Shown one piece after another: positions 523-19,004 of a stretch of 21,154 bases of DNA (position 1 is the first letter of the stretch; every line of letters starts with the position of its first letter). The notes under the pieces were generated by a model. The model ran no database searches, was not told where the DNA came from, and worked only from the letters and a program-made list of their open reading frames with translations. The position numbers were made by a program, and so were the translations under genes. Origin of the DNA: a virus; the IMG/VR virus record IMGVR_UViG_3300046007_004036, positions 1 to 21,154 of that record, one strand, 5' to 3'.

Positions 523-2297
523 TATCCTTGTTTGTATAAGAACCCAATAAGTTGAGTTTGATAATAACTATTTAATAGTTCTTGTTTAGACATACCAATA
601 GGAACCACTCTTGTTCCTCCACCGCCCATCATCATCGGTGAAGAACTACCACCGATAGGTATTGGAAGTATTGTGGATGATGGAGTACCACCAGGAATCT
701 CATAATCTGCTTGTTGCATAATCTGAGGAACACTTGCAGATACTGCTGGTGGTGCTTGTGTTGATGAGACTTGTGCTTGTGCTGGTGCTGCTGCTTGCGA
801 TGATGGTGCTGCTGCAGATGCCTGCTGTGGTGAAGGTAATGTGGGAGCAGGTGGTGCTTGAGTTTGTGCTGGTGCAGCTGCTTGTTGTGCTGCTTGTTGG
901 GCAGTCGTATCTGCTTGCTGTTGTCTATAAGATGGTGATCTTTTAAATGCTTCTCTCAGTGCATTGCTGTATTTTGTTCCCGAAGTCCCAAATCCATCTT
1001 TACCTACCTTCCCAGTTCTCATCCATTTTGATGCTCCACCAGCACCCTGATTGTGAGCGTATCCAAGAACTTGTAGTTTTTGTTCTACTGTTTGTTTTGA
1101 TTGATAATTTCTATCAGAAGAAAGGTATCCGTGATTTGCAAGAGTATATGCTGCAAACATTCTTTCCTGAAGTTCTGGATTCTTTCTGAAAGCCACTCTT
1201 CTTGGATCATTAGGATTATCCGAATGTCCAGGATCTGGTATTCCTAAAATTCTTGCAGCATCAGTTTTTGCAGGTCCACCCATTTGATATCTTCCATCAT
1301 AATATTTTCCACTACCACCAGCAACATCATATCTTCCACCAGATTCTATCTGTGCGATTGTATTTCTATAGGTATCCCACTGTTGTTTATTTGCACCGAT
1401 TTTAGAAGCAATGTCATATGCTCCTGCCTTTGATCCAACAGCAGGAGAAACATAACCACCACCATCACCTCCTCCACCACCAGCATTTGGTTGAGAAGAC
1501 TCTCCACCACCACGAAGACTATCAATAGTGCTTTGAATACCTTTAAATAAGTTCTCTAAGAATGGAATCTTCTTGGCGATCTCATCAATATTTTTTTTGA
1601 TGTCTTTACTATCAAGATTCTCTGAAGGAACACCAAGTAATTTTCCAACTAACTTTGTTCCTTCTCCAGTAATCCATTTCAATCCATCCCAAACAGGACT
1701 AAAGAACTCACCAACTTTCGTAATGAAATCTTTAATGGTTTGAAAAACATTTTTTAGAGTCTCTATAATCTGTTCAAGATTATTGAAGATCGCAAGAGCA
1801 AGAGATCCAAGTAAAACATTACCAAAGAATCTCATAAGATTAAACTTATCCTCAGGTGCCTTTATGTTAGGCATCTTGAATGGTTTTTTCTTTGCATCCT
1901 TTTCTAACTTTTCTTCTTTTTCCTTTTTCTCATCTACCTTTGCCTGTTGTTTCTTATTAGTCTCTTCTTCTTTTTGAGTTTGATTTCTGTTACTCAATAC
2001 ATCAATAATACCTTGAAGAGTCTCACCAACTCTATCAAAAATATCATCTAGTCTGCCAGTCTTTACATCTTTCTTAACTTCAGCAGCAGGAGGAAGTGCT
2101 TTAATTTCTGCTGGAGGAAGAAGTAAATTAGTCGATACGGTTTTCTTTTGAACCGTTGGTTGTTTTACTACAGCACTCTCATCATCAATCTTTTGAATAG
2201 AGGATGCTTTCTTCTTCTCAAAGAACTTATCCTTATCAACTTTCTTTTCTGATGGTAGTAATGCCTTTGCGGCAAATCCGACGAGTGCTGGTAACAT
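522..2297 (-). CDS. Tail protein with lytic transglycosylase-like domain, candidate tape-measure part
   Basis: A 591-aa protein. Residues 1-140 are charged and lysine-rich with a coiled-coil look (about 105-140). Residues 156-171 read RFFGNVLLGSLALAIF, a hydrophobic segment nearly shared with the gene upstream. After a Gly-rich linker (262-281), residues about 305-430 look like a lysozyme-fold transglycosylase: IAQIESGG with candidate catalytic Glu318, GRYQMG at 335-340, and YAHNQG at 413-418. A long Gln/Ala/Pro-rich linker follows (about 455-525). Such domains cleave peptidoglycan and let tail tips cross the cell wall. The start ATG overlaps the upstream TAA (TAATG), so the pair is translationally coupled. 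The domain is seen in the sequence. A tail location follows from the neighbours. A tape-measure role is inference. Confidence 0.7.
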   Translation of the reverse strand: MLPALVGFAAKALLPSEKKVDKDKFFEKKKASSIQKIDDESAVVKQPTVQKKTVSTNLLLPPAEIKALPPAAEVKKDVKTGRLDDIFDRVGETLQGIIDVLSNRNQTQKEEETNKKQQAKVDEKKEKEEKLEKDAKKKPFKMPNIKAPEDKFNLMRFFGNVLLGSLALAIFNNLEQIIETLKNVFQTIKDFITKVGEFFSPVWDGLKWITGEGTKLVGKLLGVPSENLDSKDIKKNIDEIAKKIPFLENLFKGIQSTIDSLRGGGESSQPNAGGGGGDGGGYVSPAVGSKAGAYDIASKIGANKQQWDTYRNTIAQIESGGRYDVAGGSGKYYDGRYQMGGPAKTDAARILGIPDPGHSDNPNDPRRVAFRKNPELQERMFAAYTLANHGYLSSDRNYQSKQTVEQKLQVLGYAHNQGAGGASKWMRTGKVGKDGFGTSGTKYSNALREAFKRSPSYRQQQADTTAQQAAQQAAAPAQTQAPPAPTLPSPQQASAAAPSSQAAAPAQAQVSSTQAPPAVSASVPQIMQQADYEIPGGTPSSTILPIPIGGSSSPMMMGGGGTRVVPIGMSKQELLNSYYQTQLIGFLYKQG

Positions 2298-4477
2298 TAT
2301 CCTACGATGTTATAGATTGCTCTGACAACCATAGTAGTTGTGTTGTTTGGATCCTCGGAGGAGAATCTTGGAACTGGTGCTTGATTAGGTGCAGTTCCAC
2401 TTGATGCCTGTTGTGCTCCACCTCCAGTTGGTATTGGTATAGGCACAATATTACCTCTACCAGTTGGTGATGGTATTGATGGTGTAGGTGCTGCTGTTTG
2501 TGCTACTTGTGCTGCTGGAGACTGTGTTACTTGAGTTTGCGTAGTTGGATTTCCTAAAAATGCTATAGGATCTAATGTTCCAGCAAATCCAAAAGTTGTT
2601 GCTTTACCTTTTCTTATTTCATAATGAAAAACTCCAGTAGTATTTGTTCCCTTAGCAACTGGAGTTCCTGGAGAAACTTTTTGTCCTTTTCTAACTAAAA
2701 TGGTATCACCTTCAGCAATTCTTTCAGTGACATTAAGTTCTGGGTTGTATATATCAACATATTTGTAATACCCACCAGAATCATTACCTATATTAGTAAC
2801 TTCACCACCTATTCTACTATAGAATGAATCATTAGCACCAGCATCAAAATCTACACCAGCGTGTTTTCTCCCTCCTCCTCTATCTGCACCATAGTGCTGT
2901 TTTCCTGGAAGAGTATTTGTTGGAGGTAATGATGGCAATCCTTTTTGGGATGGTGGTGCTCCAGGAACTGCTGGAGTTTGTGGTTGAACTGATGGTTGTT
3001 CTGGTTGAAATACTTTTAATGCTTTTTGATTATAAGATTCTCTAATTTCTTGTATTTTTCTTTCACCCTCTTTACTCAAAACTCTAGCAGATCTGGGAGA
3101 TTTTTGTGTATAATACTTTGGATCTAACTCAATATTTCTTATTTTAACATCTCTTTCCTCTTTTAATTTTTTTAATTCATTTCTTTTTCCTTGTATTTCT
3201 TCATACATTTTTTGTTGGGATGCCGACAACTTTTGTTGTTTTCTAGATCCTTTTTTATAAGTCATTCCAGTTTCAGTTATACCATATCCTGCAAGTTTAT
3301 TTCTCAACTGCTCATCAACTTTGGCAAAATCTCCACCACCTGCTATCTGACCTCTTATTAAATCATAAGTTCCTTTCATAGCTAAAGTGACTCCAACAGC
3401 AGCAGCTCCACTTGCTGCTATTGCTCCAGCAACAGGACCTGCTGCTGCGGCAGCTGCCCCTAGTCCAGGTATTTTTAATAATAGTCCACCAAGTCCACCA
3501 AGTGCTCCACTAAGAAGACCAACACCACCTAGTAGTGTTTTGGTTAACCCCAACAACATTGGAGCAATAGGCAGTAAAGCAATCGCAAGTAATCCGCCAA
3601 GTATTAACCCAGCATTATTCTGTAAGAAGTTAGCAAACCCATCAATTGCTTTTTGATTTGCTGGATCCTTCAACCACCTAAACATTCCAAGAACAACAGA
3701 ACCCAAAAGAACATTCGTAAAGAATCTCTTAATCGCACCAAAGAAATCATCAACAGGTTTAGTGAGTGCGTTAAGTATAGGTGACTTTGGTTTCTTCTTT
3801 TCTAATATTGATTCTCTTTCCTTCTTCTTTTTCTTTTCTGTTTCTTTTCTATCTTCTTGTGCTGCTTTTTGTTCCGTCTTACTTTGACTTGACAATAAAG
3901 TTCTGATGGTAATCAAAGACTCTAAAATATTACCAATACCATCAATAAGATCTCCCTGTAAATTCTCAGTATCAACTACAGGTTTTTTCTCTTGCTCGGG
4001 TGCTACCTCTGCTGCTTGTGGTATAAGTTTCTGTGCCTTTACAATCGCACCAGGAGGAGTTGGTTGTTTACGATCTAATACTTTATTAATATCAATCTTC
4101 TTTGGTTTAACTTTAAACCTACCAGTCTTATTCCTTACTCTCTTGAGTTCATTTGTAACTAACTCAATACTCTCAGTTGTCATCTGAGAGTCTGGCATTC
4201 TTCCTTTAACTGCTGCTTCCTTTAAGAGAGAAGCATACTCTTCATAAGTTAAATCAAAGACTTCTTCCAACCCTAAGATAGAAAGAATCTGAGAGTCTAT
4301 ATCTTCTTCTACTAAATCATCTGGTTTTTTTGGTATAACAGCAAGTGCGGAAGATGATTGAGGTACATCCTCGTTTTTAATACTTTCCAACAGATCATCC
4401 AAACCAGGGATGTTATCATCATCCTCTTCTTGAATGCTCTTAAGTAGATCGTCTAAACTGGGGATGTTATCAGCCAT
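2297..4477 (-). CDS. Tail protein with M23 peptidase-like domain, candidate tape measure
   Basis: A 726-aa protein. Residues 4-15 and 22-33 are a tandem repeat (NIPSLDDLLKSI and NIPGLDDLLESI). A Lys/Glu coiled-coil-like stretch covers about 200-230. Residues 251-266, RFFTNVLLGSVVLGMF, match a segment of the next gene. Residues 288-365 are strongly hydrophobic, Gly/Ala-rich and membrane-like, and 420-490 look like coiled coil. Residues about 527-640 resemble a lysostaphin-type M23 endopeptidase: His539-x3-Asp543 supplies two zinc ligands and GVFHYEIR supplies His618. The usual HxH pair has Val616 at its first position, so activity is uncertain. Being directly downstream of the tail chaperone pair is the standard place for a tape-measure protein. 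The start is the ATG that overlaps the end of the small ORF by 8 bases. Confidence 0.7.
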   Translation of the reverse strand: MADNIPSLDDLLKSIQEEDDDNIPGLDDLLESIKNEDVPQSSSALAVIPKKPDDLVEEDIDSQILSILGLEEVFDLTYEEYASLLKEAAVKGRMPDSQMTTESIELVTNELKRVRNKTGRFKVKPKKIDINKVLDRKQPTPPGAIVKAQKLIPQAAEVAPEQEKKPVVDTENLQGDLIDGIGNILESLITIRTLLSSQSKTEQKAAQEDRKETEKKKKKERESILEKKKPKSPILNALTKPVDDFFGAIKRFFTNVLLGSVVLGMFRWLKDPANQKAIDGFANFLQNNAGLILGGLLAIALLPIAPMLLGLTKTLLGGVGLLSGALGGLGGLLLKIPGLGAAAAAAGPVAGAIAASGAAAVGVTLAMKGTYDLIRGQIAGGGDFAKVDEQLRNKLAGYGITETGMTYKKGSRKQQKLSASQQKMYEEIQGKRNELKKLKEERDVKIRNIELDPKYYTQKSPRSARVLSKEGERKIQEIRESYNQKALKVFQPEQPSVQPQTPAVPGAPPSQKGLPSLPPTNTLPGKQHYGADRGGGRKHAGVDFDAGANDSFYSRIGGEVTNIGNDSGGYYKYVDIYNPELNVTERIAEGDTILVRKGQKVSPGTPVAKGTNTTGVFHYEIRKGKATTFGFAGTLDPIAFLGNPTTQTQVTQSPAAQVAQTAAPTPSIPSPTGRGNIVPIPIPTGGGAQQASSGTAPNQAPVPRFSSEDPNNTTTMVVRAIYNIVG

Positions 4478-4634
4478 TCTGCTGTTGTCTTAGTTTTTCA
4501 TCTTCCAGATGTTGTTGTAATAAACCAATATAGACATCTCGTTCCCAAGGAATCAAATTTTCAACCTCTGTTAATGAATATTTATGGAACTGCATCAAGG
4601 CAAAGTTAATCTTGTAGTAGTTCTCAAGGTCCAT
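4470..4634 (-). CDS. Small tail-assembly chaperone ORF in the gp51 position
   Basis: A 54-aa ORF beginning MDLENYYKIN and ending in an acidic/glutamine-rich tail. The phrase IPWERDVYIGLLQQHLEDE resembles the short second ORF of lambda-type tail-assembly chaperone pairs. It sits in the place of T4 gene 51 (hub assembly factor) but is far shorter than the T4 protein. I chose the second ATG because AGGA lies at good spacing upstream; an alternative ATG at 4643 adds three residues. The reading frame is open upstream to a slippery site in gp26, so it may also or only be made as a gp26 extension by -1 frameshifting. It overlaps the 726-aa gene by 8 bases. Too short for confident family assignment by eye. 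Confidence 0.6.
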   Translation of the reverse strand: MDLENYYKINFALMQFHKYSLTEVENLIPWERDVYIGLLQQHLEDEKLRQQQNG

Positions 4635-4673
4635 ATGGACCATTCCTATGCGAAAAAACTTGATAACCCTTCT
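4628..4673 (-). promoter_or_regulatory. Candidate programmed -1 ribosomal frameshift signal at the gp26 end
   Basis: Read on the minus strand there are three elements in order. AGAAGGG (4673-4667) is Shine-Dalgarno-like and lies 8 nt before the next element. TTTTTTC (4658-4652) is read in frame as T TTT TTC, a canonical X-XXY-YYZ slippery heptamer. GGTCCATATGGACC (4641-4628) is a perfect palindrome able to form a 5-bp GC-rich hairpin, starting 10 nt after the heptamer. The gp26 stop (4648-4646) is the second codon after the heptamer. In the -1 frame translation continues as CGC ATA GGA ATG into the small ORF with no stop, giving a fusion of about 298 residues. Confidence 0.65.
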
Positions 4674-5365
4674 AATACTACAGTGCTTTCTACTTTTGTC
4701 TTTGGATTTGTAAAGGTAATTTCATGAGACAACTTGGGCATTGTCTCAAAGAACTTTTCAACTTGCTTGAATTGAATAGAATTCATCTGCTCTAAGAAAT
4801 CAACCAGTTCTTTCTTAGTTACATCAGCAGCAACCCAAACTTCTTCTTCACTGTAAATTTTATCTACACAAGAAGCAATCAAATCAAAAGATTGATCAAT
4901 ACCAACATTACCTGACATGTCAAAGTTGTTCTTGATGAACTGATCAAGTGATGGATACTTCATTTCCATCATCAAACTATCATCAAGTTTAATCTTATTT
5001 GTATGATCTTCTGCTTTCTGAACTTTAATTTCATCAATATTAATTGTTACAGGCACCGATGTTTCTCCATCATCAGGTGCAATAAGATTTACTTGAATCT
5101 CTTCACCAACGGACTTACCACGAATGTTCAAGAACAAGTATTCAATATCAAAGGTTGGTAGTGCCTCTACCTTAATACCTTTTGTTTGGATACAATTCTT
5201 GAGTACTGCCTTGATGGCATTTGAGATTTCTTTAGTATCTTCTGTCTCAAGTGCTAAGACCAGTAGTTTCTCTTCTTTAACTAAGAAAGGTCGGTACTTG
5301 ATTGGTTTTCCTGTAGATGGCAACTCAAGTTCATAAGTTGGTGTTGCAATAGTCGGTAAAGGCAT
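4646..5365 (-). CDS. 26: Baseplate hub subunit gp26 (T4_baseplate family)
   Basis: A 239-aa protein, against about 208 aa for T4 gp26. It begins MPLPTIATPTYELELPSTG and contains KYRPFLVKEEKLLVLALE and FDIEYLFLNIRGKSVGE, which are hallmarks of the T4 baseplate hub/chaperone family. Family members act in hub assembly. The similarity in size and order to siphophage tail chaperones suggests it chaperones the tape measure. AGG lies five bases before the ATG, and a T4-type late promoter (5400-5393) lies just upstream, overlapping the previous stop codon. The last codons contain a -1 slippery sequence that could extend the product into the next ORF. The family call is strong; the chaperone role is inference. 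Confidence 0.85.
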   Translation of the reverse strand: MPLPTIATPTYELELPSTGKPIKYRPFLVKEEKLLVLALETEDTKEISNAIKAVLKNCIQTKGIKVEALPTFDIEYLFLNIRGKSVGEEIQVNLIAPDDGETSVPVTINIDEIKVQKAEDHTNKIKLDDSLMMEMKYPSLDQFIKNNFDMSGNVGIDQSFDLIASCVDKIYSEEEVWVAADVTKKELVDFLEQMNSIQFKQVEKFFETMPKLSHEITFTNPKTKVESTVVLEGLSSFFA

Positions 5366-5392: not shown

Positions 5393-5400
5393 TATTTATC
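5393..5400 (-). promoter_or_regulatory. T4-type late promoter for gp26
   Basis: The minus strand reads GATAAATA, one base from the T4 late consensus TATAAATA, 28 bases before the gp26 ATG. Its TAA is also the stop codon of the upstream 284-aa gene (5398-5396). Confidence 0.5.
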
Positions 5401-6250
5401 CAACTCTAAAGAAGTTTGCTGTGTTCGTTGCGTCTTGAGCATTTTGACCGAAATTAACATAATATTCATTGGTAAGTGTTCTAGTCATTTTTGAAGTATT
5501 AAATTCTGATGCTGGGGTTTCAGATATTCCAAACTCAGGACTTATGAATTCATTTTTGGGATCAAACTGTCCAAGTTCACTGATTCCAGGAGCATTTTGA
5601 TTTTTAACAACCGAAACATCAGAAGAACCACTTCTCTGCATTACATAACGAATGAATGAAAAAGATACATTACACTTTAATATTTGACTTTGATCATATG
5701 AAACTGGCATTGCTGTAATACTGACAGGAAATCCATATACAAAAGTATAATCAAGAGTTCTAGTGGATCCATTGAAGTGATGATCTCTTTCAAACTTTGA
5801 GAGGTAAAAATTTATCTTATAATTATCAGCATATTCTACACGATGATGAACATATGGACTTTTGAATTGTTCTCTATTGAAAACATCTCCAACTCCAGTA
5901 ATATAATCTATCCAACTCTCAAAGAATTCAACAACTTTATATTCCCTATCCACATAAAAGGTCATATCAGCAGTCTCATCATAGAGTCTGCGATAAACCA
6001 TCTTCTCACTTACACCATGATAATCATTTGTGACATCATGAGTTGCCAAAGTTGATCCAGGAAGACTTGCTTCTGTACACAACAAAGAAATATTATCAAT
6101 ATCTAAGGTACTAATTCCTCTCTGAGATACAAAGGTCCTAACCCCAGCAGGAACTGGTATTGTCAAACGATATAATGAAGTTTGAGCAACGTTTAACAAT
6201 CTAGATTTGATATCACTTACCGATAATCTGTCTGGGCGGATACCTGCCAT
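5396..6250 (-). CDS. Tail-tube-like virion protein, candidate gp54 baseplate tube initiator
   Basis: A 284-aa protein. Residues about 25-210 have features of the phage tail-tube fold: SLYRLTIPVP, then LLCTEASLPGSTLATHDV, then MTFYVDREYKVVEFFESWIDYITG, then FVYGFPVSITAMPVSY and FSFIRYV. These match the pattern of T4 gp19 and the related tube-like proteins gp48 and gp54. At 284 residues it is longer than gp19 (163) and closer to gp54 (320). Together with gp48 in the facing operon, a gp54-type role (starting the tube on the baseplate) fits best. It is divergent from gp4, 32 bases away. The tube-fold impression is seen in the sequence; the specific name is inference. Confidence 0.55.
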   Translation of the reverse strand: MAGIRPDRLSVSDIKSRLLNVAQTSLYRLTIPVPAGVRTFVSQRGISTLDIDNISLLCTEASLPGSTLATHDVTNDYHGVSEKMVYRRLYDETADMTFYVDREYKVVEFFESWIDYITGVGDVFNREQFKSPYVHHRVEYADNYKINFYLSKFERDHHFNGSTRTLDYTFVYGFPVSITAMPVSYDQSQILKCNVSFSFIRYVMQRSGSSDVSVVKNQNAPGISELGQFDPKNEFISPEFGISETPASEFNTSKMTRTLTNEYYVNFGQNAQDATNTANFFRVG

Positions 6251-18632: not shown

Positions 18633-19004
18633 ATGAAACTCTGCAGTGTATGTAATAGAACTCTTTCTTTTAATCATTTTCATAAGAGAACTTTAAAAAC
18701 TGGGAAAATATCCCACCAATCAAAATGCAAAGAATGTTCTACATCAGTAAGAAAAAAATATTATAAACCCCATGAATACATGAGAAGAAAATTTAATCTT
18801 TCTGAGACAGAGTATCAAGAATTAATGAAGCACGATAGTTGTCAAGTATGTGGCAGAGACATTACAGAAAAGAAATGTATTGACCACTGCCATACTACAG
18901 AAAAAATCCGAGGAGTGTTGTGTAATAATTGCAACACTGCTCTCGGATTAGTAGGTGATAATGTTCAGATTTTATCTAAACTCATCCAATACTTGGAGCA
19001 GTAA
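18633..19004 (+). CDS. Endonuclease VII-like HNH endonuclease, likely homing
   Basis: A 123-aa protein on the strand opposite psbA and psbD. It has two zinc-ribbon pairs at the N-terminus (Cys4/Cys7 and Cys32/Cys35), then a recombination endonuclease VII-type core: CQVC (70-73), [20 protein letters not shown] (82-101) with catalytic Asp84-His85 and His87, and LGLVGDN. Similar freestanding enzymes beside psbA in other cyanophages act as homing endonucleases that spread their gene and flanking psbA region. Its 3' end overlaps the psbA 3' end by 23 bases, and it carries the psbA terminator in antisense. A CTAAATAA box at 18601 and a weak ribosome site are all I see upstream. Confidence 0.88.
18901..18949 (-). 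terminator. Intrinsic terminator of psbA, embedded in the HNH gene
   Basis: On the minus strand AATCCGAG pairs with CTCGGATT (8 bp), and inside it AGTGTTG pairs with CAACACT (7 bp), with a small asymmetric bulge between. The stem is followed by a T run. It lies 33 bp beyond the psbA stop. The plus strand has no T run on its side. Confidence 0.85.

Follow-up and report, generated by a model that had tools for sequence, protein, structure and literature searches.

The window, that is, the whole stretch of DNA analysed, is an IMG/VR virus record of 21,154 bases from a marine T4-like cyanophage, and includes two photosystem reaction-centre genes and speD. An Endonuclease VII-like open reading frame (ORF; 18633-19004, plus strand; PF02945, E 2e-16) lies on the opposite strand between the two reaction-centre genes, and its last 23 nt overlap the 3' end of the psbA-like gene. 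In this respect it is similar to free-standing homing endonucleases that have been reported close to psbA in cyanophages. The gp26 region includes the following features, listed in the direction of transcription.

5396..6250, minus strand: tail tube protein, upstream neighbour (PF23849, E 1.5e-14; phrog_45, E 8.5e-36)
4646..5365, minus strand: gp26 homologue, putative short isoform (TAC-N) of a tail assembly chaperone, 239 aa (PF12322, E 8e-74; phrog_150, E 3e-79; AlphaFold2 model with pLDDT 87)
4667..4673, minus strand: Shine-Dalgarno (SD)-like AGAAGGG 8 nt 5' of the heptamer, probable internal stimulator (GAGG or AAGGG in 77/80 clade members)
4652..4658, minus strand: slippery heptamer T TTT TTC, two codons upstream of the gp26 stop (U6 heptamer kept in 223/223 distinct relatives)
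4646..4648, minus strand: gp26 0-frame stop TAG
4628..4641, minus strand: hairpin GGTCC-ATAT-GGACC beginning 10 nt 3' of the heptamer, possible stimulator (stem enrichment against a synonymous-codon null, and covarying pairs)
4470..4652, minus strand: -1 frame C-terminal extension (TAC-C; 'gp51' in the annotation of relatives), 60 aa, RIGMVHMDLENYYKINF...QQQNG (phrog_634, E 5e-26; -1 frame open in all readable relatives)
4472-4470, minus strand: TGA ending the -1 frame
2297..4477, minus strand: 726-aa protein with an M23 peptidase domain, probable tape-measure protein, downstream neighbour (tape-measure matches weak)

The tail tube gene upstream of gp26 is clear, and the 726-aa neighbour, whose gene shares 8 nt with the end of TAC-C, is only weakly recognised as a tape-measure protein. 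In HTVC008M and Cr30, a gene annotated as tape measure directly follows gp26, gp51 and one small ORF.

The original prediction for this locus was a programmed -1 frameshift that fuses gp26 to a small ORF at the position of gp51, and re-derivation of the coordinates reproduced each of its elements exactly. In the 0 frame, gp26 ends with AGT TTT TTC GCA TAG, and TTTTTTC (4658-4652) is in the X XXY YYZ phase two codons before the stop. AGAAGGG (4673-4667) is located 8 nt upstream of the heptamer and GGTCC-ATAT-GGACC (4641-4628) starts 10 nt downstream of it. Beyond the heptamer, the -1 frame continues without a stop as far as the TGA, with a predicted product of 238 + 60 = 298 aa.

Relatives were drawn from four IMG/VR scans, one scan with a KVP40-type gene, and seven phage records, among which T4 and 44RR were left out of the count. 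A readable gp26 end was present in 224 distinct loci. One of these (L170) was set aside to give 223; near position 1986, it has an early in-frame stop in a gp26 gene that is 99% identical to that of HTVC008M, which is likely an assembly or sequencing error. The 223 relatives take in proteins as little as 30-40% identical to the queries, and all of them have a U6 heptamer that is in phase and 0-24 nt upstream of the gp26 stop (TTTTTTC in 188, TTTTTTA in 21 and TTTTTTT in 14). The -1 frame is likewise open through the same domain in 223/223, with a few contigs ending before the domain does. A search of this set for members lacking the heptamer or having a stop in the -1 frame, as had been proposed with the prediction, found neither. 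The same design is found in cultured phages of several families, namely P-HM2, P-SSM2, HTVC008M, Melnitz, phiM12 and ValKK3, and Cr30, YB07, PhiW-14, Aeromonas 65, Asswx_1 and IC12.

At six loci (L184, L210, L229, L230, L232 and L244), the slippery site is located 24 nt upstream of the 0-frame stop rather than 3 nt, and the short isoform would therefore include several extra residues. In the Vibrio phages VP-1 (Ackermannviridae; L267 1192-2120) and D504 (L269 1051-1970), the -1 frame is open at the gp26 end and runs on into an extension of similar type. The gp26 ends of these two phages have no canonical heptamer and include GTTTTTC- or CTTTTC-like runs instead, and a non-canonical slip is possible there.

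The choice of codons at the slippery site differs from that in the remainder of the gene. Among the 80 sequences of the window's clade, Phe codons elsewhere in gp26 are TTT (71%) or TTC (29%), compared with TTT at the first and TTC at the second position of the slippery site in 80/80. The codon before the Phe pair always ends in T, as the heptamer needs. A chance heptamer is ruled out by the 223/223 conservation and the frozen Phe codons. A requirement for two Phe residues is insufficient by itself: other pairs of Phe codons would meet it, and T4 gp26 has TTC TTT. The slippery site is under codon-level selection, and the comparisons point to a real and ancient slip signal conserved far beyond chance.

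In 62 of the 223 relatives, all of which belong to clades other than the window's own, the -1 frame has no ATG, GTG or TTG within its first 18 codons, and 91/223 have no ATG ahead of the conserved core. Since the 62 lack any of these start codons before the 'gp51' domain, the extension in these phages is obtainable by frameshifting only. In close pairs, nucleotide differences in the start-less linker at -1-frame codon positions 1, 2 and 3 number 84, 83 and 211, respectively; the linker thus evolves as a protein read in the -1 frame. The annotated gp51 of P-HM2 begins mid-domain (L085 1588-1680), because there is no start codon upstream. Truncated gp51 calls are also found in Sf-CH8, HTVC008M and Melnitz. 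The prediction's label of a 'gp51-position ORF' is misleading, as in at least many relatives this small ORF is a C-terminal extension and not a gene. This corrects a common annotation error in the cyanophage-type records examined, where 'gp51' appears as a separate protein and the evidence indicates the tail of a frameshift fusion.

The Glu-Gly codons upstream of the heptamer spell GAGG or AAGGG in 77/80 members of the window's clade, as compared with 29 expected from the codon usage of the gene and 66 from the codon frequencies of the site itself, and GAA is paired with GGG in 16/19 cases. This pattern indicates selection of the SD-like element at the codon level. The full 5-bp stem downstream is present in 62% of the same clade, compared with 34% (maximum 50%) under -1-frame synonymous-codon randomisation. 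The stem pairs covary (C-G to U-A, G-C to A-U), with a mean of 4.27 pairs versus 3.94 when the arms were shuffled (sd 0.04). With RNAalifold, no consensus structure was obtained for the window's clade, and support for the hairpin in this clade therefore derives from the targeted pair test. As sequence kinship was also only partly controlled in the stem statistics, the hairpin is considered a probable stimulator. The P-HM2 clade includes a different stem, GCCCUC/GAGGGC, that is complete in 79% versus 8%; there the stem varies little, and the support comes from codon choice, not covariation. The comparisons thus favour a downstream hairpin in two clades. A hairpin was not found in all clades, and a universal hairpin was rejected, given that the window's register scored below the null in a mixed group (mean 1.59 versus 1.90).

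The T4 genes clarify the relationship between gp26 and the extension. PF12322 matches gp26 of the window (8e-74), T4 gp26 (9e-64) and T4 gp51 (4e-52), and in the last, a protein of 249 aa, the domain covers residues 1-201. In addition, phrog_634 matches both the window's extension (5e-26) and residues 147-246 of T4 gp51 (1e-23). T4 gp51 is accordingly a full-length gp26 paralogue carrying the extension, to which the -1 fusion is equivalent, and T4 gp26 is the short form. In T4 and 44RR, gp26 and gp51 are separate genes on opposite strands. The T4 gp26 gene is not followed by an extension; it retains the residues EFF with the codons GAG TTC TTT and lacks the heptamer. Hence, the T4 proteins are the counterparts of the short and long products in phages that frameshift, and a single chaperone pair is obtained by two routes, via frameshifting in many T4-like lineages and via two genes in T4.

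The prediction further assigned gp26 and its fusion to chaperones of the lambda G/GT type, a reading that, together with the frameshift, draws strong support from the comparative evidence. Two nested isoforms and the gene order of tail tube, gp26, extension and probable tape measure appear to match tail assembly chaperones, and TAC-N and TAC-NC proteins are the best reading of gp26 and its -1 fusion. The AlphaFold2 model of gp26 matched the HK97 chaperone (2ob9) and YqbN (3klu) below significance only (E 2-4), and a sequence search of the PDB found no relatives of known function.

An alternative is that two separate genes are present, in which case gp51 would be translated from its own ATG (4643 or 4634) through coupling or through reinitiation once ribosomes reach the gp26 stop, and the heptamer would be incidental. 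An ATG does occur in the -1 lead of 132/223 relatives, including the window, and gp51 has its own CDS in GenBank records. However, 62 relatives have no start codon there and 91 have no ATG, the annotated gp51 of P-HM2 is forced to begin within a domain, the heptamer is codon-frozen, and in T4 the extension is fused to a gp26-like domain. The SD-like AGAAGGG is also separated from the ATG by >20 nt, too great a distance for initiation there. The start-less relatives rule out an independent gp51 gene as the general case, and the alternative is considered very improbable. A separately initiated short protein is possible in the phage of the window, which has -1-frame ATGs. A homopolymeric run could also permit slippage by RNA polymerase on the U6 stretch, which would yield the same fusion without ribosomal slippage. 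However, the run is short and capped at six T, being TTTTTTC or TTTTTTA in most members; these are canonical tandem-slippage heptamers, no member departs from the phase, and the accompanying elements, SD-like and hairpin, are of the type that stimulates translational slips. Polymerase slippage is therefore regarded as extremely improbable.

A further alternative accepts the frameshift and takes its product as a structural subunit of the baseplate hub, in keeping with the old name of gp26, rather than a tape-measure chaperone. Records label gp26 'baseplate hub subunit', and genetic studies, as quoted in PMC3004832, placed T4 gp26 in the hub. The same source, however, lists T4 gp26 and gp51 as hub assembly chaperones, with gp51 absent from the final particle, and the gene position and pattern of short and long isoforms fit tail assembly chaperones. 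A structural role is thus unlikely, and strongly so.

It is therefore very probable that the cyanophage makes a short and a long chaperone by programmed -1 ribosomal frameshifting on U UUU UUC close to the 3' end of gp26. At the TAG, most ribosomes would terminate to give the 239-aa TAC-N. A minority would slip back by one base, with tandem re-pairing of tRNA-Phe from UUU, UUC to UUU, UUU, aided by the upstream SD-like sequence and, in the window's clade, probably also by the downstream hairpin, and would continue to give the 298-aa TAC-NC. The analogy of lambda G and GT suggests that both forms coat the tape-measure protein and act as its chaperones in tail assembly. The sequence comparisons establish the arrangement of the elements and their deep conservation; the occurrence and efficiency of slipping, the isoform ratio and the chaperone role are inferred. 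More tentatively, and at rather less than even weight, the slip in marine T4-like phages may be tuned by a clade-specific set of cis elements, namely the codon-selected internal SD-like element and a covarying stem-loop, which in the window's clade also holds the nearest AUGs. Besides promoting slipping, the stem-loop may prevent a separate start of the extension, and the balance between the two elements appears to differ among clades.

Vladimirov, Gautam and Davidson (Virology 2022, 566:9-15) reportedly identified the T4-like chaperone genes, and their abstract is said to describe frameshifting as conserved in several T4-like groups, with T4 using genes 26 and 51. Hence, the suggestion in the original prediction that such a frameshift had not been described for T4 gene 26 falls away: the mechanism is established and, according to citing papers, the T4-like case is already published (Vladimirov, Gautam and Davidson 2022), making the finding a correct rediscovery. 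According to the passages that cite this work, poly-T slippery sequences are known in T4-like TAC-N genes (PMC12846349), and some T4-like phages do not frameshift and have one short and one long fused gene (PMC10885494). A search of the literature on gp26/gp51 frameshifting and cyanophage ribosomal frameshifting found no direct report, and none was found, the full text of Vladimirov 2022 aside, of start-less extensions or of codon-level evidence for the SD-like element and hairpins.

Lambda G/GT consists of two overlapping ORFs between the tail tube and tape measure, an arrangement that the locus described here probably shares. In lambda, the extended form arises through a -1 slip close to the 3' end of the first ORF, and the slippery sequence differs from T TTT TTC. 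The T4-like chaperones, represented by T4 genes 26 and 51, share with the window's phage the PF12322 family and the short and long isoforms, and the members that frameshift have poly-T slippery sites as here, as cited in PMC12846349. T4 itself, unlike the window's phage, uses two genes and no frameshift. The TAC locus of the Vandenendeviridae and Andersonviridae, as in phage Adele (PMC12846349), also has a -1 frameshift that is conserved where TAC-N ends and relatives with no stop in the -1 frame, but belongs to different phage families and uses the slippery motif GTTTTT, not T TTT TTN.
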